Source of the DNA: Patiria pectinifera
Taxonomy: Eukaryota > Echinodermata > Asteroidea > Valvatida > Asterinidae
Assembly: GCA_029964075.1 (NCBI GenBank)
Contig: CM057133.1
Coordinates: 14,780,699 to 14,844,698 of the forward strand
Direction of reading: 5' to 3'
Length of the DNA stretch: 64,000 nt
The position numbers were made by a program, and so were the translations under genes. The notes under the pieces are model-generated. The model was not told the origin of the DNA. It searched no databases and saw only the letters and a program-made list of their open reading frames with translations. Shown here one piece after another: positions 21,301-52,700 of this stretch. Each line of letters opens with the position of its first letter. The first letter of the stretch is position 1.

Positions 21301-24300
21301 TCCCAGAGTGCACACATTTGATTGGTTGAAAACGGCTGTTCACTGGAAGTCTTTCCATTCATGTGTCTACACAATGGGCTGGAATTAGCCCGTTACACAT
21401 CCACGTATCAACCCTGACATTTCTGAATGCTAAATCACATCCTATATATCTTATCTTATCATCCTGTAGAAAAAAGCCTAGATATTCTCATACCATAGTC
21501 AATGTAGTCGCCTTTCAATGCTTGGATACCATCAATTAGAGCTTGAGCTAATCCAAAGCTACTGGGTCTGCAAAATAAATGAAAAAAAAGGAAGCAAACA
21601 AGTAGCAGGCATGGTGGTCCAGTCTCCAAAGGGCCACTACGCAGTCACTTCTGCCTAGCAGTTACCAACAGAGACAGGTCACAGGTATCGCAATTTGACT
21701 GGTTACTTGTTCCATGCTGGATTGAAAAGCTTAAATTGTTGAACTTTCTGCTCTATACTGACCCATTAACCCTAACTCCCTCGCATGATTTACTTGGAAC
21801 CATACCCATCCTGGCAAATTCCAATACCATATGGTAAAACTGCACACACACATTTCTGACTTTGATTCTGGAGGTGTGCCGACCAAATGTAAAAGACTGT
21901 CAGTTTTAGGGGTACTGTAACCCATCCTGACAGGTTCCAACTGAAAACATGCCGTTGGGGTTTGATGGATTGAGTTGAGCATATATACAGGCGTAACTGA
22001 CAATTGACACTCATTTGTTTTACTCCAAGACTGCCAGTGACTCATCAACTGTTAACATTTGGAAATGCATATGATGAGAGCAGCATCTACAAGTTGCCGT
22101 GATAAAAAATGGGATAATTGGTACATTTTCTTGTATGGGCATTCCAAGTGCATACACTGTATGACAGTTCAAAGCTAACTGTGCTAAATGTGGGTCTTTT
22201 TTTGGTCTGAGCAGAGTTTGTGTGTTCTCTTACTCTCCTTCTTTACCTACTTGCAGAGAATTAGGTCACTTAATTAACTAACTGTACCTTGTATCTCGTG
22301 CCAGGAAGATGTTCGCTGGCAGCGCCATGTCTATGTTCAGCTCACTGATGAGGCTTTGGACACACTGGCCTAAATCTTCATCACTAGAATAATAACCAAG
22401 AAAATGAAATAATGAATGGGATTTTCATAATTATTAGATTTTTTTCCTCTTTTCTTTTGCATTAAGTAAGTTGAAAGACTTGGTTTGAGTTTAGTAGTGT
22501 AATCCTCTGTCGACCTGTCCTTTGTCTATTTACAGCTGTCCTTTAAATTCATAGCATTTGCATTTCTTTTAGCTGTGGTTATGTAACATATCAGGGTTTT
22601 CATTCATGCGTACTGGAGCGCAAAGTGCCAGAATCTGGTACAGGACAGAAGCTTGTAGAAACTCAAACCGAAGAGACGCTTGAAGCCAATGCTTCACAAA
22701 AAGGTAAGTGTTCTTTCAGCAAAACGAAAACAAATCACATCTATAGGGATGTGTGTGCATTGTTTTCGTTTTGCTGAAAGCACACCTTTTTGTGATCCGC
22801 GGACAGAACTTTAAAATGGTGGTTGTGTTTAAAATTCCGTAACTTGAAAAGCAGTGATGTAGTGCCTTGATGCTGGGCCTTGGCCTTAAGGCTGCCTTAA
22901 GGCTGGATTTTAGGGCCTTGGCCTTGGCCTCGAGGCTTGAGGACAAAAGCCTTGGCCTTGGCCTTGGCCTTGGCCTTGAGGGTTCAGGGCCTTGCAATTT
23001 TGAGTCAAGGCTCTTCAAGGCCCATAGATTTTTGCATTTTTCAGACAAATCTGTTCGAAATTCTGCTGTTACCATTTTAATCGTATTACCATGGAGGAGG
23101 GAAGCACCCTATAGATTTGTGTGTTGGGCACACTTCCACTTTTGTAGCATCACATTTTGTTACCATTGTAGTAGATTTGCTGCAAAAATATTCCGTACAC
23201 TTGTGGGGCTAATGAGATGATCACTTTAATTGCATATGACTATGAAATAGATCTGATTGGTTGTATATGTCTCCCTGATCAGTGCTAAAGCTTTGCATGT
23301 ACATGTATCTGTTTTAGATAATGCTGATATTTCTGACCATGTTGGGCCAGCAAATAAAAATTTCCCAAATCAGTTTCTTGGATCCCCTTTTTGTTACACT
23401 TGGGAGAATTATGTGTCAAAATAGAAGTAAATCATTATTTTGTTTAGTTAAACCATATTACAGTTTTTCCGGAGCTTGTCTCCGAAAAACGCACTTTAGC
23501 TCCGGGGGGAGGGAGTACGGTTGTTCCAATAACAATTTTGTTTGGTGCGCGCGTGAGCATCCAATCACAAGGAAGAACTGGCTCGCGGCGCGCGCACACT
23601 TGGCGGGAACCTTCACTTTTTCTTCGGATTCACCACCGGAGACATTGTAAAAAATTTGGTCAACAAATTCCGAAAAATTTCGGGCCTTACGCCGACTCCG
23701 AACCTCCAAGTGTGAATCGTCACTGACGCGAGGATGCCGAGAGGTCGGGGGAGAAAACGAAAAGCACGGGACGACGCAGGGGCCGTCGCAGGTTCGGGCA
23801 GAGCGGCGAGTGGTCCGGGAGAAATTTCTCAGCGACCGAGTCAAACCCGCGCTCAAGCGCGGGCGATACGCGCGTTAACCGACCCGCATTCGTTGCTGCA
23901 CACGGCCGACCCAGCCAGCGGCCCTGCCGAAGGACGCCCTCTCTCGACAAGAGACTCGATTACTAATGGCGGATCACAAGGCACGCAAGAACGGCCACGG
24001 GCAACTCGGCCGTCTTCGCCGGGGGATAGGAGCGGTTTCCACGCACCGGCATCGTCTGCAAGTGCGACAGCATCAAGCATCGCCGGCGGTGGGACAACGT
24101 TAGCGGTCGGCACACCTGGGCCTCTTCATCATGATGTAGGCCTACATGATATCGGCGGTCCATCTACGGCAGCCGGCGCGGCCACCGTGGCTATGGGGGG
24201 AACGTCAAACCCAACGACGGCCAGCATGACTTCGGACATTTCGGCGCCCACAGCCACAGCAGGGCCAGTGTCCACCACTCTGGCGGCCAGTGGATCGACT

Positions 24301-27300
24301 TACGCCCCCTACCCACAACAGGCTGTATTGGGAGGCGGCCTGGCGGCAACCCAGTCCACACCAACCTTCCAGGCGGCGACCGGACACCCCGGACATGCTG
24401 GAGGCGCAGGCGTGGGCCTTTGTTATCCTGGCTCAACGATGGCAGGTCCAAGTCATCGCCCGCTCGGTGAGTTGAGCGCCGGTTTCTGGCCGGTCTTGGG
24501 TAATTTCCCTTCATCAACTACATGTTTTACCTCCCCCTCATCAACCATGTCAATTGGACCCTCCTGTACTTCTGGGGTAACTTTAGGTAGGCCTAATCTT
24601 ATGCCTAGCACGGAGGTGAACGAGGGCCTATTGGCTTCTGTTTGCGACCCCTTAGGTGCTACCGTACCAGCTAACATAAGGGAAAAGATAGTGAAAAGCG
24701 AGTACATAGAGTTGGATTTGCTTTTAGAGCGTCATATCCCATCCCCTTCCTCTAGCTTCACATTGAGTCTAGATAATACTGGGCAATTACTGCTGAAAGA
24801 TGTGAAAAAAAGGCAACAGATTAATTCCATCATGGGGTGGACCGATGCCTTTCTCATTTTAGCATCAGTTTTCATAGGGGCACACCCGGGGCGAGCACAG
24901 GAGATGTTTAAATACATGCATGTTGTCAGGATGGCGGCTGCGCGCTTTGCCGGGCGGGGGTGGATGGAATATGATAAGCAATTTAGGATGCGCCAGCAAC
25001 TCCACCCCCACAGATCTTGGGCCACCATAGATAGCGAGCTTTGGGCTCTATTTCTGTCAGCCCCAGGGGCATTTCACACAGGATTTGGAGGTCAAAAAGG
25101 GGGTGGGCAAGTTGTGCCAACAAAGCAGCGATCCTTTCGCACATTCTCCCGCAACAGCGGCATATGCTTTGCCTTCAATCGGGGTGGGTGTAAAAACACA
25201 CAGTGCAAATATTCCCACAAGTGCTCCGTCTGCCAATCTAATGAACATGGGGGGGCAACCTGCAAATTCCAGAGCAATAAAACAAACGCGTCCCGCCGGT
25301 AGCATGAGGGCTTTTTTACCGCCCAACTCGACCAGTCCTTGCATCAAGGGAAATCATTGCGTGTGCTGCTTAGCACATACACCAGTGAAAGTATCAGCAT
25401 TGCTGCCCCTGCTAGAAGTATATCCAAAGACTGCGGCTGCGAAGTGTTTACGGGATGGGTTTTCAAACGGTTTTAGACTAGGGTTTTGCGGGCCTCGGGT
25501 CAGTGCGGACGCTCCCAATCCTCAGTCAGTTAAACAAAATTTTGCTGCAGCAGCAGAAAAGTTGAATGAGGAAGTCGAGTTGGGCCGCATGGCAGGGCCA
25601 TTTTCAGAGAAACCGATTGCAAACCTCAGAATTTCCCCCATTGGGCTCATACCGAAATCGGTCCCCGGCAGCTTCAGGTTAATTCACAATCTGTCCTACC
25701 CAGAGTCTGGTTCTGTAAACGAGGGGATTGATAAACAGCTTTGCACAGTGCAGTATACAAATTTTGACGATGCAGTTAATCTGGTAGTCGGGGCGGGGAT
25801 TGGGGCATTGATGGCCAAAGCTGATATAAAATCGGCTTTTCGCCTTTTACCAATTCACCCTGAAGACTTTTGTCTCCTAGGCATTAAGTTGCGTGACAAT
25901 TACTATGTAGACAAGACCTTGCCCATGGGGGCATCCTGCGCCCCAGCATTGTTCGAAACATTCTCCACTTTTTTGGAATGGGCCGTGAAAAAGCAGTCGG
26001 GATATGATAGCATATGTCATTATGCTGATGATTTCCTATTCCTGGGGAGGGAACGTCCAGGGGGGAGGTCTCCCTGTCAGGAGATTCTTACTTGTTTCAG
26101 AAAAGTATGTACGGACTTAGGGGTCCCCTTGGCAGAGGACAAAACTGTGGGGCCAACAACTCAGCTGACCTTCCTGGGGCTGGAAATAAATTCGGTATCT
26201 CAAACGGTATCAGTTCCTGGGGACAAATTGCATAAGATATCCGAGAAAGTTTTGGCGGTAGCTCAATCCAAGAAAGTTTCATTAAGAACGCTCCAATCCC
26301 TCATTGGTTCACTGTCATTCATTTGCCGAGCTGTGGCTCCAGGTCGGGCATTTTTACGACGGTTAATTGACCTGACGAAAGGTGTCAAGAAACCTTGGCA
26401 CCTGATTCCTCTTTCGCAAGGTGCAAAGGCGGATTTGGTCATGTGGCAGGTTTTCTTGCAAAACTTTAATGGGAAGACCTTGATTCCAAATCAGTTCTGG
26501 ATACAAGATACGGATTTGCAGCTGTTTACAGATGCCAGTGGCGGAATCGGGTTTGGGGGGTATCTTGGGGGGCAGTGGTTTCGCGACCTCTGGCCTCAGT
26601 CTGTCCATTCCGAAGCACGTTCCATTGCATGGTTGGAATTCTTCCCAATAGTCGTGGCACTGACACTTTGGGAGATAGTTGGGCCGGAAAGCGTATTTTG
26701 ATTCGGTCCGATAACCAGGCAGTGGTTGCCATCATCAACAATCAGACTTCCAAATGCCCCCATATTATGAAACTAGTCAGGTATTTTGTGCTCCAGTGTC
26801 TTCGAAAAAATGTTTCTTTCAAGGCCAAGCATATTCCAGGGGTCGAGAATAACATCGCTGACGCCCTGTCCCGTTCCCAGATTGCACGGTTCAGACAGCT
26901 AGCCCCATTAGCAGACAGGGTGGGCCGGGAGGTTCCGGGTTTTCTATGGCAGCTATAGGTGCTGAGACAGAGCGGCTCTTGGGGGCTTCTATGGCCAGCA
27001 GCACTTGGGTGAGCTATCACAGGGGGGTGTCCCATTTTCAACAATTTCGCCAACAAGCGGGATTACAGTCCTCTTGGCCCGCTTCCAGTGGACATGTTGC
27101 GGCATTTCTTGCCCACATGTCTATAATGGGTATGGCTCCATCCTCAATTAGCACTTACATCTCAGCAGTCGCCTTTGTTCATAAATTGAATGGTTGGCCC
27201 GACCCCTCAGATAATTTTATCATAAGAAAGCTCAGGGAAGGAAGTCGTCGAGCACACCGCAAGCCTGACACTAGGCGCCCGGTTACGGCGGACTTACTGG

Positions 27301-30300
27301 GGAAACTTTGTCACATGGTAGGCTCCATTGCCGCATCCGAGCTGGAGGCGCGACTATTTAAAGCAGCCTTTTTGCTAGCCTTCTTTGGATTTTTTAGGGT
27401 GGGAGAAATCACTGCTAGGAACAAATCTGCGGACTGCTCACAAATATTGGGATTCAATGATGTCTGGTTTGAGGGTAACGATGCGTCGGTCATGAATGTC
27501 ATGCTTAGGCACTCAAAAAGTGACCAGCGGGGTGATTCAGTAACGCTGCGGTTCCATAGAATCCTTGATTCCCCCCTGTGTCCAGTTCAAGCAGTGTTGC
27601 GTTATCTCCAGATCCGGCCGGCCTTGGGGTTTCCCCTGTTGATGCATGCGGATGGGGTTCCAATGACCGCATACCAGTTCCGACACATGCTAAAGAAGTG
27701 TTTGGAGGCTTTGGGGGTGCCCACACTAGGGTTTAGCGGACACAGCTTTCGCATTGGCGCAGCCACATCGGCTGCATTAAATGGCATTGCGGTCTCAGAC
27801 ATTCAGTCTTTGGGGCGGTGGAAATCGTCTGCTGTGAACTTATACATTCGGCCTGACAAAGTCTGGTTTCCCATGTAAGAGATAGGTTATGCTACGCTAA
27901 GCTTTATCGCCAATCCTGTAGACCCTAATTTTGCTGGAATGTTTTTGGCTCTGGTTTTTCTTTGTTTGTATTTCTTGCAGGCACGACTCGTACATGGGTA
28001 GTTGGGGACAGCATAGTTTACCGAGCAGCTCTCTCTGATCCTCGGTGCGCTTCCTCCAGGTGCCTCAGGTGGTACGGTGTTCGGGGAGCCAAGATCTCCG
28101 CATTGGTTCCTATTATCAGCAGCCACCTTAAACAAGAACCGGCCCCCTACACCATCGTCGTGCATTTAGGGACAAACAATTTATTTGTTACCCCGGTTAA
28201 AGAACTACGTTCCCAGATAGAAGAGGGCCTTCGTAGCATTCGGCATTTGCTGCCAAACACAAAGATCGTGTGGTCTGACATCTTGCTAAGGCTATTTTAT
28301 TATGGAGAGGTAAAACCAGGTGTGGGTAAAAAGAATGTGCGTTCCCTGAACAAGTTCGCCCACAGCTTGTGTAAACACCTGGGTAACGCTCACGCCATCG
28401 TGCACTCTCATAACATAAATCCCCTGCAACATTCGTTGTATTGGCGAGATGGCCTACACTTGGCCGCATCAGGCAACATGTTGTTTTGTGAAAACATTCA
28501 CAACGCGCTGGCCTTTTTTGCATTGGAACCAGAGGCCCTCCTCTACCCTCTCGGGAACAAGTATTAGGCTTACCCAACTAGTTCGGTTAAGTTACCTCAT
28601 TGCTGGGGTTGAGTGCGGTTTGCAAAAAAAAAAAAAAAAAAAGGGGGGGGGGGGTTTGGCAAGTTTTCCCAATGGTAAACTTGTTTGGTGAGAAATTGAA
28701 GATGTAAACGGGTTAATTGCCTTTTTTGACAAACTTGGGACCTTTTTCCGGGGCCTCCCTCCCCACATCTGGCACAGGGGGACGGAGCCCAATTTGGGAG
28801 ATTGGCACACGCAGTCTCAAACTCCGCAGGGGGGTTGGTATTTCCTTGCCAACCATAAACTCGCGCTGCACTCTTGGCGTGTAGACTGCCGGGGTTGTGA
28901 ATGGTTTATTTCACTTGTAATACTAAGTGCTCTTATGTAGTTTGGCTGCATTCATGTTGTTGTCGATGGACAAGAAAGGTCCTATATACATTATATTTAG
29001 AGGAAGTGTGTGTTTATTGTCATGTTCACTTCAAGTTACATGCAAGTGATGGTACATCTTGTGTACATGTTTACTGGGAACTTAACTAAGTCAGTTACGA
29101 TAAATGTTCCACCTTCAAGTGAATTGTGTGAGTTTTGAATTTAAAAAGAACTTCCTGCTAGAGTGGCAGCCAGTGTTTTTGCCGAAGGTGGTGGTTTTGC
29201 AAGTTTCGGGAAAGATTCCTGTATTACACATATATAAATGTAACTGCATGTATATGACCTCTGTAGTCTGGGTGCAGAAAAGTGAAGGAGAAATAAAACT
29301 CCGACTCGGTGGTGAAGGCCGAGAAAACTGGCAATACGGTTTCCGCTGTCTCTCTCTCTCCGCAGCTAATACAGTTTTTCCGGAGCTTGTCTCCGAAAAA
29401 CGCACTTTAGCTCCGGGGGGAGGGAGTACGGTTGTTCCAATAACAATTTTGTTTGGTGCGCGCGTGAGCATCCAATCACAAGGAAGAACTGGCTCGCGGC
29501 GCGCGCACACTTGGCGGGAACCTTCACTTTTTCTTCGGATTCACCACCGGAGACATTGTAAAAAATTCCCTCCCTCCCACCCATTAGAGCTAATGAATTA
29601 CCTTGGAGTTGGTAGGTCTTACTGCCTTTAGAATGTTTGGCATGGGTCAGAGAATTTTGATTGGATGACAGAGACAGGTATTCAGGCAATACAAGTTTTT
29701 AACGGTTGGGGGTCCCCTGTTGGGTTCAAATGGGGGGTGTTTGCCACCGTTGACAGTTTGCCGCTGTGGGACAAGAATTAGGAAGGCCTTATCCCCAATT
29801 GGGTTAAATTCAAACAAATTGGGGTGGGTTAGGTCTGGGGCTTGTCCATCCTGTTCATCCGCGCGACAAGTTGTGTAAGGCTCATTCTCAGTTGGGTTTA
29901 AACTGGGATGGTCAGGCCTGGGTAACTGTCATTGCATGGTTCCCACATTGGGAAGGGGACATGAAGGCTAGCCCCCAGTTGGGTGAATAATACTGGGGCG
30001 GTTCAGGCCTGGGTGCATGTCCAAGGTTCTCAATTAAGTCACATGTGGGATGGGTCTTAAGACCCGCATGGCATACAGCGGGTGACCCTGGGTAATTCAG
30101 GCTTTGTGTTTTTCCATGGTTATCGGGTGTGGTCAGGATAGGGAGAGATACAGGTATACCTGTTGGTGAGAAATTGAAGATGTAAACGGGTTAATTGCCT
30201 TTTTTGACAAACTTGGGACCTTTTTCCGGGGCCTCCCTCCCCACATCTGGCACAGGGGGACGGAGCCCAATTTGGGAGATTGGCACACGCAGTCTCAAAC

Positions 30301-33300
30301 TCCGCAGGGGGGTTGGTATTTCCTTGCCAACCATAAACTCGCGCTGCACTCTTGGCGTGTAGACTGCCGGGGTTGTGAATGGTTTATTTCACTTGTAATA
30401 CTAAGTGCTCTTATGTAGTTTGGCTGCATTCATGTTGTTGTCGATGGACAAGAAAGGTCCTATATACATTATATTTAGAGGAAGTGTGTGTTTATTGTCA
30501 TGTTCACTTCAAGTTACATGCAAGTGATGGTACATCTTGTGTACATGTTTACTGGGAACTTAACTAAGTCAGTTACGATAAATGTTCCACCTTCAAGTGA
30601 ATTGTGTGAGTTTTGAATTTAAAAAGAACTTCCTGCTAGAGTGGCAGCCAGTGTTTTTGCCGAAGGTGGTGGTTTTGCAAGTTTCGGGAAAGATTCCTGT
30701 ATTACACATATATAAATGTAACTGCATGTATATGACCTCTGTAGTCTGGGTGCAGAAAAGTGAAGGAGAAATAAAACTCCGACTCGGTGGTGAAGGCCGA
30801 GAAAACTGGCAATACGGTTTCCGCTGTCTCTCTCTCTCCGCAGCTAATGAAGACCTGAACTTATACTTTAATAGATACAGTGCAGTCATAAAACGGTGTA
30901 GGCCTATGCGAGCATGTTGATTGCAATTAAAGAAATGTTGTTCTTCGTAACGAGCAATTCGTGATGATAAGGGCGGATCCAGGGGGGCCAAAAAGGGACC
31001 ATGTCCCCCCCCCAAAAAAAGAAACCATTTTTTTTTAATGTGACGTCGTAATAAAGGCAGGCAATTAGTATACCACCATCTTTTCCTAAAAAAAACATTG
31101 GTTAAAAATGGTCAGAAATTGCCTCAAATCGCACCACAGAGCATCTCGAATCCAAATTTTTTTCGGGGCCCTTGAGCGGGCCCCGAAGCCCAAGCCGTAA
31201 TTTTTGACCCACTTTTTTGGGGAGGACCAAAATTTCTCCCCCCCCCCCAATTGTGTTCTGGATCCGCCCTTGCGTGGTGATGTGTCACTCATGTGACTAT
31301 AATCAGTTCTGTATCAGTGGTCATTTCATAAAACAGGGCCTTGGCCTTGGCCTTGGCCTTCAGGGTTAAGCCTTGGCCTTGGCCTCGAGGCTTGAGGGTC
31401 AAAGCCTTGGCCTTGGCCTTGGCCTTGAGGGTCAAAGCCTTGGCCTTGGCCTTGAGGGTCAAAGCCTTTGCTCCAACACTGTTGAAAAGTACATGAGTGA
31501 TTTGAATGATTCTTGTACTAAAAAGAAGCTTATGAATTGGGCTTTCATATCCTAGATTTTGAAAGTGCTACATGCAAAACTTCACTTAAACAATAGTCCC
31601 GACATTTGGGTTTCGTTTTTTTGACCCTGTATTTGTCCTGAGAAGGAATTCATTGACATTCCCTGATAGCTGTATATTGATAATTGTGCATTAACTACTC
31701 GCATTGTTTTGCAAACACTTTGGACAGGTAAATGGGACAGTTGATAGTGTGTTTTGGAGTAATTTAGCCCAACTAAATTTCTAGACTTTTGCCGGTCTAG
31801 CCGTGACAGCTGGTCTCATATTGAATAAACTGGTGAACTGGAATGGCATGGATAATGTTGCATGGGACAAGAAATATTCAGGCAGTGTCAGATTGCCACG
31901 TAGCAATTTTTACTTGACTCACGTACTCTTTAAATTTGCAACTTTTCAAACTGCATCACTTTTCACAAACCGTTGTCAATGTTGGACGATTTACAGTCTT
32001 TGGTAGCAAACAGGGTATCAAAATGTAGCTAACAACATTCCCCAAAGGTCTATATAAATGACGTTATCATAAGACGATCAGATTCAAAATTGTGACCCCT
32101 CCAATGAGTGTTGACTTTTTTTCTTTTTTTTTGCGGTGTTTATAAAGAACAGGGAGTGGACTGACTCAGACTGATATTTGACTGATTTCAAAGACGAAAT
32201 TTTAGCTAATAGTCCTCATGGAAACTCTGAAATCATGCACGAAATTGGTTTCAACAAAGTGTGGTAATTGAACCCCCCCCCCCCCGAAAAAAAATACCAT
32301 ACATCTGATTCAAATAACATCATGGACATTTTTTCATCATCACCCTGAGACCACTCACATTTTTCAAATGTTTGAATCAAAAGTATGCTATTCGAAAACA
32401 TTTTATTTGGTTGATGATCAAAATATTTGAATATTCACACAGCCCTAAACTGGCGCATACATGTATGTCTAGGTTCATACTCAGTGCAAAAGCAGACAGC
32501 ACATTTGTGAGGTCACACCAGGTTTTTTTGGCTTTGAATTAATAGCAAAAGTTGAGCATACCACTTATTTCAACTGGGGTGGATTTTCTTTCAATTTGGA
32601 TTCGTGAAATACATGTGTGAACTATATGTTTAAGCTACATGTAGACAAACTTGTGGATTATTCACTTGATCCCCTAAGCATCAGTAGTCTGGGTACAACA
32701 ATTGTATTTGTTTTCCTGCAACCATGCATGTACATGTACACGTGCATGTACATTACAAGGCATGAACACCCATTCAAATTTGTTTGCCAATTTTTTTTTT
32801 CTATTGTATTGTGAATCGACACACATTTTGGTCCCTGGCATCCAACAATGACAACTGTAGTTAACTATCAGTAGCGAATCGGCCCCCTCAACCATTCTAA
32901 GGCAATTGGAGAATAAATTTAGAAACTCTGAGTCGAAATTTATCTCTGGCATCATTTTACTAGTGTAATTTTTTTCAGAGGCTGCCCACCCCCCCCCCTC
33001 CCACCCCGTTCAATCTCTAATAAATTTTATACTTGTAAAATGGGGCCAAACATAAAAAAAATATGACTCAAAGTTCCTAAATTTATTCTCAAATTGTCTT
33101 AGAATGGAGAAGGGGACATGCCCCTGGACCCCCTATAGCAGGGGCACTCCTTCACTCAAATATCACCCATCACACCCCCCCCCATGGATTTCCTGAAAGC
33201 TAGATCCGTTGCTAACTATAGTGTACTCTGGAAATGTTTGTCTGTTCAGTATTTTGTTAAAGAGAAGAACAAAAAAACCTGATCAATATAAGCTATAAGT

Positions 33301-36300
33301 AAATGTGCATGTCCTCCATTAAATAACAATAGTCTTGCGATCAATGGTCATTTCAACTCCAACTGATAAAATTCACAAAACTTTTGGGATATCTATATCA
33401 ATCTTTGAATACGAAGAATAATAAGGTCAAATCAAAGATAGGAAATTTTTCCTTTTTTTTTTAAATTACAGTCTTCAGAATTAATTTTGTAAGCCATTTT
33501 GACCATCATCTTTTGTAAAATAATGGAACGTCTTTTGCAGCATGTTTATTTGCATGCACACTGTATGCCTTTACATACATGTAAAAACGGGAAGTGCGTT
33601 AATGGGCTCTGGCATTTGCAAAACTAACAAACAACTCCTTATCTATCGGAAGAAGGATCAAATCAGGCCAGAAACCATGGAAACTATAGTTCATTTGCGA
33701 TGAATAATGCGTTACCATGGAAACCAGGCATGAAAATCTGCCCCAGGATAAACGACAGCATTGGAACATGAACAACACTAACAGTGTTAAAAAAAAACAC
33801 CTGGAGATTCGACATAATAAATTATCATACACATTTCTGGAAATTCGGCATTTCATTTCCTTGTTGGTAAATTTTTGTTTGTTTGAAAATCAATGAAAGG
33901 CATACTGCAACACCTGTTTTGTCTGAGCCACTATTTCACAGCTGGTCGTAAATGATTGACAACAAAATGGTCAGAATTGCACATACAAGAATTTTCAAAT
34001 ATCATACACTTTCAATATTATCAAATCTGTATTGTAGAGAGTATTTTGCAAAGATACAAAAAGGCCAATGCTTTTTCTGAGTGGCAAAAATATACTGCAT
34101 ACATACATGTTCATATTCATTTACTGTGTGCACAAATAATATTTCATAATGTGGTGACGTACATTATGTATACTGACGATAGAAACTATGCATGTACCTT
34201 GAGAGAAAAAAAAATCTATTTCAGTCTTGCATTAAGGATATTCATATCATAACAGGGTGAGTTAAAAAAAAAAAAGGAGAAACCCAAAATGGTTTCAAAT
34301 ATTTTGTATTATAAGTTCTGCATACAATGTACATACTTCATGTTGTACATGTGTACTTTCCATATCTAAGACGTGAAAGCCAAAATAATAAGCTTTCTTT
34401 TAGTACAAGAATCATTCAAATCTCTTATGTCCTTTTTGATTAAATTTTGAACACAAAGACAGTTTTAAAATTTTGACCACGGATCACATTTAAGGTACGT
34501 GATATTTCTGTAAAATGAGACCATGTCGTATCAAGGAAACGATATCAGAATAATCCCGTAAATCTCTAAGTAGCCAAGTCGAAAGCCGGGCAAGACTATA
34601 AACTCTCGACAATCTAAAGCATGTAGTTTTAACATTGGAAGCAGAAGGTGTTTATATAGACGTTATTATAGGTGTAAGTGCCAGTTATCATGGTCATGAG
34701 AGTGTTCTGGTGTGTTTTTTTGACATGAATTGTTTTAGTTTTGCTGAAATATCACTTACAGTGTACCTTTATTGTGAAACGATTCTTTTACTAAAATAAA
34801 TGGGTTTTCAATTTTGGAAACCGGATTTTCAAAATGAAACTTACCTTAAAAATTTGCCCCAATTTTCTTTTACCACTTCACATCTAACTACTTTTGCCGA
34901 AAATTTTGATTTTCGCAAAGTGCAAAATTTTACAGCAAAGGGCCACAAATACTGATTTTCAAGAGTAATTTTAACAGTATTTGTACGATATTTCTTGCCG
35001 AAACCTCATGTGTTTCAATACTCTGGGGTGTGCACTGGAGCGTAAACAACGCCTCCGCAGACTTCACAGACTGCGTGTGTGTACAAATGGCATGAGGGAT
35101 TAGCTTGTTTAGACGTCACCCGGAGCCGAGTCGAGGCAATCTTGACGTCTAACCCGTCAGCCCTGCCTGTATATAAAAACAGTGTTTTCACGTCCTCCGA
35201 CGTGAACTGGTTAAAGGTGAACCTCAACCAATGTGGATATGAACAATGCAGATATCAATAATTCTGTCTCCACAATACTTACGATGTATTTGCGATTTGT
35301 GTTGCGTAGCCTTCCCATGCCTGCAGCAGCATCTCCCCCATGGGTTCTACCACCTTGGCCCCGTTGTCTTGCTCCGGGTTGTGGGAGGCTGTGATCACGA
35401 CTCCAATGGTGGCTGTCAATCAGGCCAAAAAAAGAAGAAAACAAATGTACTATAGTGTACCAGCCAAAGTGGAATGTTACACTTTGGACAACATTTTTGG
35501 GTAATTGCAGGCAACCATGTCAGATCAATCAGTCAAAGGATGAAGGCGAAAATGTAGGTGGATGCCACCCATACTTTTGACCCAAATATACCTAATTTGC
35601 ATAAATTGTTAATCCCTGCCGTGTTATAAATTTATTCCCATAAAATTGGGTATATTCTTTATTTTTTAATTTTTTTTTAAAGTTTATTTTGGTGATTCTA
35701 CTTACACACCCTTACTTAAATAACATTTTCTTAAGCATATAAGTGACTGAATAATTATGAGGACATGGCAATGATCCAAAATGGCTAAATGTAAACAAAA
35801 ATTAGCATTTTATCAAAATTAAAAACTTTTTCATGTAGCAGAAATTCCATAAAATACATGAATATGCACCTTTGGCTGCCCTGGATCTCAGAACGACAAG
35901 GAGCCCAAGGCGATACAACACTGGATCCAATATATCAGCCCTGCAGTAAAGAGAAATTAATTGAATGCACTGTGAATTTATAAGAGTATCACTAATCAGT
36001 ACAAAGGTAACTGTGATTGTTTCAGCACACAATGTACACGTTTCTACATGTATACTAAACAGGTAGACTGGTTATTCCTTATATTAAAGAGAATATACAA
36101 CATTTGCAAACATCAGAAAACAAAATTACCAGATTTTTGCGAAATACCTTACTAGGATGTTGGTAAATGAAAGTCTAAAGCATCCTGTAAAATTATGGCA
36201 CCTGGTGTGAAGTCATTTTCAAGAAAAGTGGTATTTTGTATAATTTTCTAACGGTGGTCGGCCGACCACCGTTGGAAAACCTAACTATTTTTCAACTACT

Positions 36301-49700: not shown

Positions 49701-52700
49701 TGTCACGAATTACATCTTTAATACTTACAGTTTCAGGTTTCATTCACAGAAATGTTGATTTTGATGAACAATTCGGAAAAACAACCATTTTGTGTGCATC
49801 GTTCTGTAGTTCTACAACAGAGCCAGCTATTTCAAAGCCTGTTTTCTCAGTTGTGTAATTCGAACTCCAAGGAAGTAATTAATATGCAAATATGTCATAT
49901 CTCCAGAACGGGAGGGGCTATGGAGCTCTATTATATACCAAATGAAAGCTTACGTTGTGGGCTTTCCAACCACGTATATAACCTTTTTGTGGAGCCGGTC
50001 ACTAATGTGAATGTGTATTTGCACAATTCGTTCCTACCTCTGTCAGATTTTCGGCTATGTCAAGCATACCCTGCCGTAAGAAGTGTTCACAGATCACCTC
50101 ATTGAGAAGCCGCATTCTCTCTGGTGACTCAAACGTCTGTTCAGAGTTCAGCTGGATCAGCTCGCTGGCGAAATTCTGCCGAGAAGACATCAGAGTATGA
50201 ATGGTCAAGTATAATAATTTGGGAGGCTAATCATCCTTACTCACAGCTGGTATGCTGAATTGCGAAGGACGCGGCTACAACGTGGTCGGGCCGCTGGCAC
50301 GTAAAGGCACCTATGGCTGCCGGCCACATCGACCCATAATATGACCACAGAGCACAGCCTGAGATCGAAAGTGTTTGATTTTTCCGGAGGGAGGAAAACC
50401 GGAGGGCCCGGAGAAAAACCCTTGTGGCACAGGAGAGAACCAACGCACAACTCTACTCACATGCGATCCGCGGCCAGGATTCGAACCGTGGTCACCTTGG
50501 TGAGAGGCGAGCGCTTTACGCACAAGCCACCCATGCCACCCAAAGTATCAGCGACTAGTTAACTTTATGTCATAACACAGAACCCTTGTTCAGGTTTTGG
50601 TCTGATCAGAATTTGATGTGAATCAAAACACAAAGTTTTTTTTTGTTTCTGCTCGGTTTGGACCACTTGGTTTGTTAACACTTGGCATTTTTGCTGGGAA
50701 CCCACTGCGGTTCAAGCATTTCCCTTATACTTCAATCAGGCCGTTCTGTATTTCTAATACCACAAATGCCCATGGAAAGCCCTATAAAAAAAATATGTCA
50801 ACTAATCTGAACCCACACAAGCCAAAATTCCTTGCTATCTTGTGAAACACACTTACTACCAAAAGCCGGTCATACTAAAAAGCGTCAACACACGCAGAAA
50901 CGTCAACACAGCGTCGACACCTCGAAAACGCTTTCAAATTGACAAAACCAGTATTCCAACCGCACAGTATGGGCAAAAATGAAATTTTGGCTTAAAATAA
51001 ATAGGTTAAACGTCTGAAAATTGCAATTTTCAGTTCAAGAAAATTGGCTCTTCGTGCAGCTCCCAAATCGGCAGCCATGTTGCCTCAGGAACAGCGCTGA
51101 CGATACCATTTCGCAAAAGTGGTGATAACATTATACAATAAATCAACAGAGGGCGGTCGTTACGTGTGAATCTGAATACGAAGACATGATAATTTTATTA
51201 CCTGCACATCCATATCTGAAATGGTGTAGTCCAAGCTCAGTGCAAAGGCAAGATGGCGGACAACGGCAGTGCTGCTTAGAGATATTTTTTCGCGTGAAAA
51301 AACTCCATTTTCGTAACCAAATGTAACTTCTGACCCACCGAAAATCTTTTTAAGTCTAAACTTTACAGTTCTATGCCCTTTTTTGTTAATTTAGAATGCG
51401 TTTTGGAGGTGTTGACGATGTGTTGATGCCATGTTGACGCTTCTGCATGTGTTGACGCTTATTAGTACGACCCCCAAAAGCACCTTATCAAAAGCAGTTT
51501 CTTCTGATAGGGTGAACAGAGATTCTTTGCTTACAGTAGCAGACCCGCAATCCCCTGTGGTTAGCAGAGCGATGAAATTGAGCCCAAGTGAAAGTCAGTG
51601 TACAGGGTGAGTAAAAAAAAACAACCAAATGTTGGGACAATTGTTTTAGTGAAGTTCTGCATGTAGCACTTTCAAAAATCTAGGATATAAAAAAGCCCAA
51701 TTCATAAGCTTTCTTTTAGAATAAAAATCATTCAAATCACTCATGTACTTTTAAAGTTACAGAATTTTAGACACAACCACAGTTTTAAGGTTCTGTCCAC
51801 GGATCACAAAAAGTTCAGCATTCTTTCAGCAAACGAAAACAAATCACATAGGGATGTGTGTGAATTGTTTTCGTTTTGCTGAGAGAACGCACACCTTTTT
51901 GTGATCCGTGGACAGAACCTTAAAACGGTGGTTGTGTTTAAAATTCCGTAACATGAAAAGTACATAAGTGATTTGAATGAATCTTGTACTAAAAGAAAGC
52001 TTATGAATCGGGCTTTCATGTCCTAGATTTTGAAAGTGCTACATACAGAACTTCAATAAAACAATAGTCCCGACATTTGGGTTTCGTTTTTTTTTTACTC
52101 ACCCTGTAGATTCCAAATTCAGGAAACACAACCCTTCATTTAGCTTGCATTGCTGTGAGGCTCTAAATGCCGAGTCCCAGTATTTCAGACATGTATACAT
52201 ACGTACATATTATGGGCAGAGATGCCACAGGGTCTGCTTGAAAAAACCGGAACTGGGTCTGCTTGAAAAAAAACCCAGAACGGCTGCTTGAAAAAAACCA
52301 GACTTTTTTGTGAGTGAAAAAGCCACTCCGTGTCCGACACAAAGTCCCCGTTGTCATCTTTATCTTGTAGCCAAGCCAAGTTTTGTTTATTTTTTAATTT
52401 TGCTTCTATGGCCTTTAAAGCTGTCGGTTCGTTCAATCACTGACTTTTTTCATATTCCTAATATTTATTCTGCCTACCCGAATTTCCAACATAATATTCG
52501 ACACGAAACATGCACAATTCCACAACACTGCTGTCGGTGTACATGATCCTTGCACTACGCGATGCGCTCAACAAAAACATGGTTGGTACCTGCATTTTTT
52601 GTATTCACATATATCACTGCGATCGGAAACCACCGATAGCTGACACGATAGACTTGATTTCCAGGCTGAATGCTACCGGTACGTGTGCTTAGCACACAAC

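Follow-up and report, generated by a model that had tools for sequence, protein, structure and literature searches.

The analyzed DNA (hereafter the window) is a 64-kb part of contig C5 in the 613.5-Mb genome assembly of the starfish Patiria pectinifera. It contains a stack of mobile elements located between two minus-strand exons of the gene PGM3, i.e., inside a PGM3 intron (Table 1). The two exons joined match phosphoacetylglucosamine mutase chains in a comparison with PDB (E value 7.2e-18), which supports the intronic position given in an earlier note on this DNA. The exon upstream of the stack contains one TGA; since the matching stretch begins with this codon, it probably marks the intron edge. 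The genome search found no alternative allele of the locus, its unique left flank being present at one place only, and a search of a partial literature collection found no titles on the present nested stack. Very probably, the stack is a nest built in the order: long terminal repeat (LTR)-like repeat, palindromic miniature inverted-repeat transposable element (MITE), hAT composite, and Ngaro retrotransposon.

Table 1. Features of the nested stack, its host gene, and the reference MITE copy (window positions; aa, amino acids; ORF, open reading frame).
Feature	Position	Strand	Evidence or remark
PGM3 exon, downstream of stack	22288..22383 (approx.)	-	Translation read; splice sites inferred
LTR-like repeat, left part (layer 1)	22420..22686	+	Similarity to 21 other genome places
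Palindromic MITE, left surviving piece (layer 2)	22694..22851	+	Positions 202-358 of intact copy
hAT target duplication TTGAAAAG, left	22844..22851	+	Sequence read
Predicted non-autonomous hAT element (layer 3)	22852..31481	+	Ends CAGTGATG/CAACACTG; GGCCTTGG arrays near both ends
Ngaro retrotransposon (probable last insertion)	23459..30847	+	7,389 bp; no target duplication
Ngaro repeat A1	23459..23656	+	198/198 identical to A2
Ngaro ORF1, gag position	23716..25299	+	528 aa; no Pfam match
Ngaro ORF with reverse transcriptase	25031..26698	+	RVT_1 E 2.4e-13; end resembles RNase H start (by eye)
Ngaro frame, later RNase H part	26470..26955	+	RVT_3 E 5.2e-5, profile positions 61-121 only
Ngaro tyrosine recombinase	26862..27875	+	Phage_int_SAM_1 E 5.7e-6; Phage_integrase E 1.3e-5, just under cut-off; Cre chains E about 1e-6
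Ngaro SGNH/GDSL-type hydrolase ORF	27929..28564	+	Lipase_GDSL_2 E 1.2e-6, 29.6 bits vs. curated cut-off 32.9
Ngaro repeat B1	28685..29369	+	685/685 identical to B2
Ngaro repeat A2, adjoining B1	29370..29567	+	Identity to A1
Ngaro repeat B2	30163..30847	+	Identity to B1
Small-MITE duplication CGTGATGA, left	30960..30967	+	By eye
Small hAT-type MITE	30968..31272	+	First base T here; in every hAT copy examined
Small-MITE duplication CGTGGTGA, right	31273..31280	+	CGTGATGA in most other copies shown
hAT target duplication TTGAAAAG, right	31482..31489	+	Sequence read
Palindromic MITE, right piece incl. second octamer	31482..31629	+	Similarity to intact copy; end by eye
LTR-like repeat, right part, end GTCTAGCCGTGACA	31639..31809	+	Renewed match in 5/7 loci; edges read
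PGM3 exon, TASHNP motif, upstream of stack	35318..35422	-	PF02878 30.3 bits (over cut-off); PDB match
Intact palindromic MITE, reference, TA-flanked	51603..52106	+	504 bp; flanks read

Insertion of a hAT Element into a Palindromic MITE

The intact palindromic MITE of the window shows 85.5% identity to its own reverse complement, and its two pieces at the stack are recognizable by comparison with this copy. The left piece is 88% identical to positions 51804-51960 and starts only at position 202 of the intact copy, whereas positions 31483-31622 on the right show 92.9% identity with it. When the two pieces are joined, 272 of 304 aligned columns are identical to the intact copy across a single octamer, with a misaligned 3' tail among the columns counted; the MITE is thus split at TTGAAAAG, as had been claimed. 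The left piece matches 39 other places of the genome at 89-92% identity (40 scored of 2,451 candidates). Among eight other copies, five have a single TTGAAAAG at the corresponding site, and the remaining three differ from it in one base, including the reference copy, which reads ATGAAAAG. A TA target duplication is seen at the intact MITE and in several aligned copies. With its TA flanks and a near-complete inverted repeat over the entire length, the family resembles other TA-flanked palindromic (fold-back) MITEs and is probably Tc1/mariner-related.

The TTGAAAAG octamers lie directly outside CAGTG (22852) and CACTG (31481), the edges of an element of 8,630 bp as found and 1,241 bp after subtraction of Ngaro. 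TTGAAAAG occurs eight times on the plus strand of the window, so that an exact octamer match at both chosen edges, with a probability of about 4^-8 by our estimate, is not expected by chance. The element has short terminal inverted repeats and, at its two ends, subterminal GGCCTTGG arrays that point the same way. A genome search with positions 23040-23458 yielded 40 matches that are 94-100% identical (40 scored of 680 candidates), and 29 other loci were cut out for comparison. Both ends were found in 27 of them, and 25 of these copies carry an exact 8-bp duplication. No hAT transposase was found in the window element, in whose own pieces no stop-to-stop frame exceeds 120 aa.

Two of the sampled loci, L010 and L011 (about 380 kb apart on contig C13), share the duplication GCAGGTGT and show 97.6% identity in an alignment of 2,740 columns comprising the element and its flanks; therefore, they were counted as a single insertion. 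These closest relatives of the window hAT either go back to a segmental duplication or are haplotypes that the assembly left unmerged. Repeats are prone to collapse, and the presence of such a near-duplicate might suggest that the stack, too, is an assembly artefact joining separate repeats. This is extremely improbable, however, since the joints of the hAT and Ngaro elements are base-exact and agree with homologous empty sites, and the unique left flank is present once.

A Transposase-Bearing Relative of the hAT Element

The hAT dimerisation domain has 94 matches in the genome, and 700 bp downstream were fetched for 20 of these. In four cases, the downstream DNA contains GCTCCAACACTG with at most two changes, preceded by arrays of GGCCTYGG in two (L099 and L100) and of GGTCTCGG in the other two (L102 and L104); the array unit seems to vary among hAT subfamilies. 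One of these elements was delimited on both sides, a 5,132-bp hAT on contig C7 (C7:23123321-23128452, i.e., L115:1022 to L099:325). It has CAGTG ends and GGCCTYGG arrays at each end and is flanked by ATAATGTT, an exact 8-bp duplication. It encodes a BED zinc finger (E 1.6e-6) and a hAT dimerisation domain (PF05699, E 7e-16); among the five frames tested, two have no match and one has a hAT RNase-H-fold match below the cut-off.

As 8-bp duplications are not unique to hAT, the CAGTG-ended window element could be of another terminal-inverted-repeat type with duplications of this length, e.g., a P element. We give this alternative almost no credence, because in the C7 element similar ends and subterminal arrays flank hAT domains (PF05699 and the BED finger) and are accompanied by an exact 8-bp duplication of its own. 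Judged by its sequence, the window element is a non-autonomous hAT, an assignment made because of the 8-bp duplications together with the similar ends and hexamer arrays in an element of the same genome that carries transposase domains; the hAT-like nature proposed previously is thereby upheld. The C7 element, for its part, appears from its architecture, ends, and arrays to be a relative of the window hAT and not its demonstrated helper.

For the Tgf2 element, binding of the subterminal repeats by an N-terminal zinc finger has been described (PMC4890040). Non-autonomous hATs and Tgf2-like elements resemble the window element in the 8-bp duplication, the short terminal inverted repeats, and the subterminal repeats at both ends, and its transposase-bearing relative shares the BED zinc finger with Tgf2-like hATs (PMC4890040). 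The difference lies in the subterminal repeats, which are GGCCTTGG arrays in the window element, while two relatives have GGTCTCGG at their ends.

The Small MITE Inside the hAT Element

The earlier note placed a GGGCGGATCC MITE at 30969-31271 and regarded it as a local insertion of unknown order relative to Ngaro. By our reading, this small MITE extends one base further in both directions. Beside the L010 hAT lies an independent copy that ends in CAAGGGCGGATCC/GGATCCGCCCTTG and is flanked by the duplication ATTGCACG (by eye); if the same ends are applied to the copy within the hAT, its own duplication is CGTGATGA.

The distribution of the small MITE does not agree with a local event. In all 29 other hAT loci, which were found via another part of the element, it stands directly after the same hAT sequence and in the same orientation, although in two of them (L014 and L023) it is cut short on the right and only its left part is present. 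A search with the small MITE itself (positions 30969-31271) gave, as the best 40 of 3,438 candidates, the window, eight loci of the hAT set, and 31 others; each of the 20 fetched from these 31 contains the MITE inside the hAT at the same site. In a search for MITE-free hAT copies with a joined query, none of the 40 candidates scored (out of 1,028) matched across the junction, and a 33-base pattern of the empty site had no genome hits with up to three mismatches; a more diverged founder would escape both searches. The small MITE of the window differs from that of L010 in 1 of 293 aligned bases. In the alignment of small MITEs, three loci (L014, L020, and L023) were dropped, and the selection needed a gap between the flanks and so was blind to MITE-free copies; the check on all 29 hAT loci was run without the gap condition. 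Relative to the surrounding hAT DNA, the small MITE also shows extra differences (mean 3.6%), for which gene conversion was considered; many of them fall at homopolymers, where the alignment is uncertain, and nothing was concluded.

Insertion of the small MITE into the present hAT copy, either before or after Ngaro, is hardly credible given this distribution. An 8-bp duplication of its own and its independent occurrence elsewhere mark it as a real separate transposon, yet neither the pattern search nor any scored match revealed a MITE-free site. Its identical position in every hAT locus examined shows that it is older than the present hAT insertion. On the sequence comparisons, the small MITE is of hAT type and entered the founder of the hAT element before the sampled family multiplied; the MITE and its host moved to the present locus together. 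It is conceivable, but improbable, that a hAT-type MITE inside another hAT family helped that family to spread and for this reason came to be present in every sampled copy, the nested composite being the unit of amplification. If true, the help could come from additional transposase contacts or from mobility by two transposases.

The Ngaro Retrotransposon

The retrotransposon inside the hAT element has split direct repeats, in which all 883 of 883 bases are identical, and the reverse transcriptase, RNase H, and tyrosine recombinase bear out its previous assignment to Ngaro. The earlier note had also suggested a search for the Ngaro flanks joined without Ngaro. Such a site was found in 29/29 other hAT loci, reading CATATTGAAG in 27 and differing by one change in two. 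The window reads CATAT, TACAG...CTAA (23459-30847), and TGAAG, i.e., target bases were neither gained nor lost, and base 30848, formerly taken as the element end, belongs to the target. The internal joint of B1 and A2 (CTAA/TACAG) equals the two ends of the element joined.

Seven other Ngaro copies show 98.6-99.6% identity across 3 kb; in the first 2.9 kb of the window copy, substitutions relative to them amount to 0.41-1.19%. The 5' end was read in all seven and the 3' end in six. In 8/8 insertions including the window, the penultimate base before the element is A, whereas the first base after it is variable. For DIRS1-like elements, a circle has been proposed to recombine at a very short sequence that it shares with its partner (PMC3266345). 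The flanking bases of Ngaro fit such recombination, in which the circle itself would be the intermediate.

The arrangement A1, coding part, and B1 A2 B2 is that of Ngaro-like elements from zebrafish, sea urchin, and Xenopus, as is the succession of reverse transcriptase/RNase H, tyrosine recombinase, and SGNH-type hydrolase without a methyltransferase match (PMC9210276, PMC4157794). The methyltransferase domain, which distinguishes DIRS and PAT elements, had no match at E <= 0.01 in the five Ngaro ORFs. Unlike in these elements, the RNase H of the window copy appears by eye to be split over two frames, even though the split repeats are identical; therefore, this copy may be defective. Between A2 and B2, the window copy contains about 595 bp of other DNA (29568-30162), in which weak repeats recur at a spacing of about 90 bp.

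The Oldest Layer

The stack is surrounded by an LTR-like repeat. The 21 other genome matches of its left part are 76-88% identical and partly incomplete. To the right of the stack, the match resumes at 31639 in five of seven loci cut out, one of which also matches 31766-31809. The full unit in related loci is about 1.6 kb long with TGTCA...TGACA edges, and in L044 it has a 5-bp duplication AGAAG on either side; furthermore, three pairs of hits are spaced about 7, 7, and 12 kb apart. These features suggest that the oldest layer is of LTR nature. At the window locus, about 730 bp of the LTR-like unit are absent together with the first 201 bp of the palindromic MITE, and the right part is also shortened, which points to one or more deletions. 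The repeat around the MITE, the loss on the left of the MITE, and the hexamer arrays shared with transposase-carrying elements had been missed in the earlier note. As for its coordinates, the octamers and the hAT borders stand, whereas the ends of the palindromic MITE (31632, now 31629), Ngaro, and the small MITE were revised (Table 1).

Order of Events

The previously proposed order of palindromic MITE, hAT, and Ngaro is sustained by the nesting, the empty sites, and the divergence from close relatives, which decreases from the LTR-like repeat through the palindromic MITE and the hAT to Ngaro. The LTR-like repeat shows 83-88% identity to the relatives aligned, the palindromic MITE has 6/173 differences from the majority of eight copies, and the window hAT differs from its nearest relative L011 in 2/569 and from L010 in 4/569 positions (L016 and L013 were dropped from this count).

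Several observations weigh against the reconstruction. Two of the 27 hAT copies with both ends (L012 with four mismatches and L033 with three) have no matching 8-bp duplication. Outside the arrays, no match was found between the C7 element and the window hAT. In one of the seven other Ngaro copies, on contig C17, the 3' end is missing from its expected position, and the LTR-like duplication is present in only one of three loci with a readable right end. The window hAT differs from the majority of its whole family in 10 of 561 bp, nine of which are common to L010, and the divergence order rests on nearest relatives. Finally, the samples are the best matches of longer candidate lists and lean to close copies.

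The following scenario would account for what was observed, namely the borders and duplications, the empty sites, and the small MITE common to the hAT copies. An LTR retrotransposon would have left the LTR-like repeat, which was then entered by the TA-flanked palindromic MITE; a deletion at some stage would have removed part of the repeat and the left 201 bp of the MITE. Elsewhere, the small hAT-type MITE entered the founder of the non-autonomous hAT family, the composite multiplying as a unit. A hAT transposase acting in trans would have pasted one composite into the palindromic MITE, duplicating TTGAAAAG. Most recently, Ngaro entered the hAT copy, probably by recombination of a circular DNA copy into the target via its own tyrosine recombinase, a process from which the absence of duplicated or deleted target bases is expected.

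The kinds of elements involved are already known, and the stack is ordinary in kind and unusually legible. Copies elsewhere in the genome settle what nesting alone cannot, since a nested piece may arrive with its host element and not on the spot. The high similarity of the Ngaro copies together with the identical split repeats indicates recent movement of this family. The hAT lineage has both transposase-bearing and non-autonomous members with hexamer arrays at both ends, which makes recognition of the arrays by the transposase testable.

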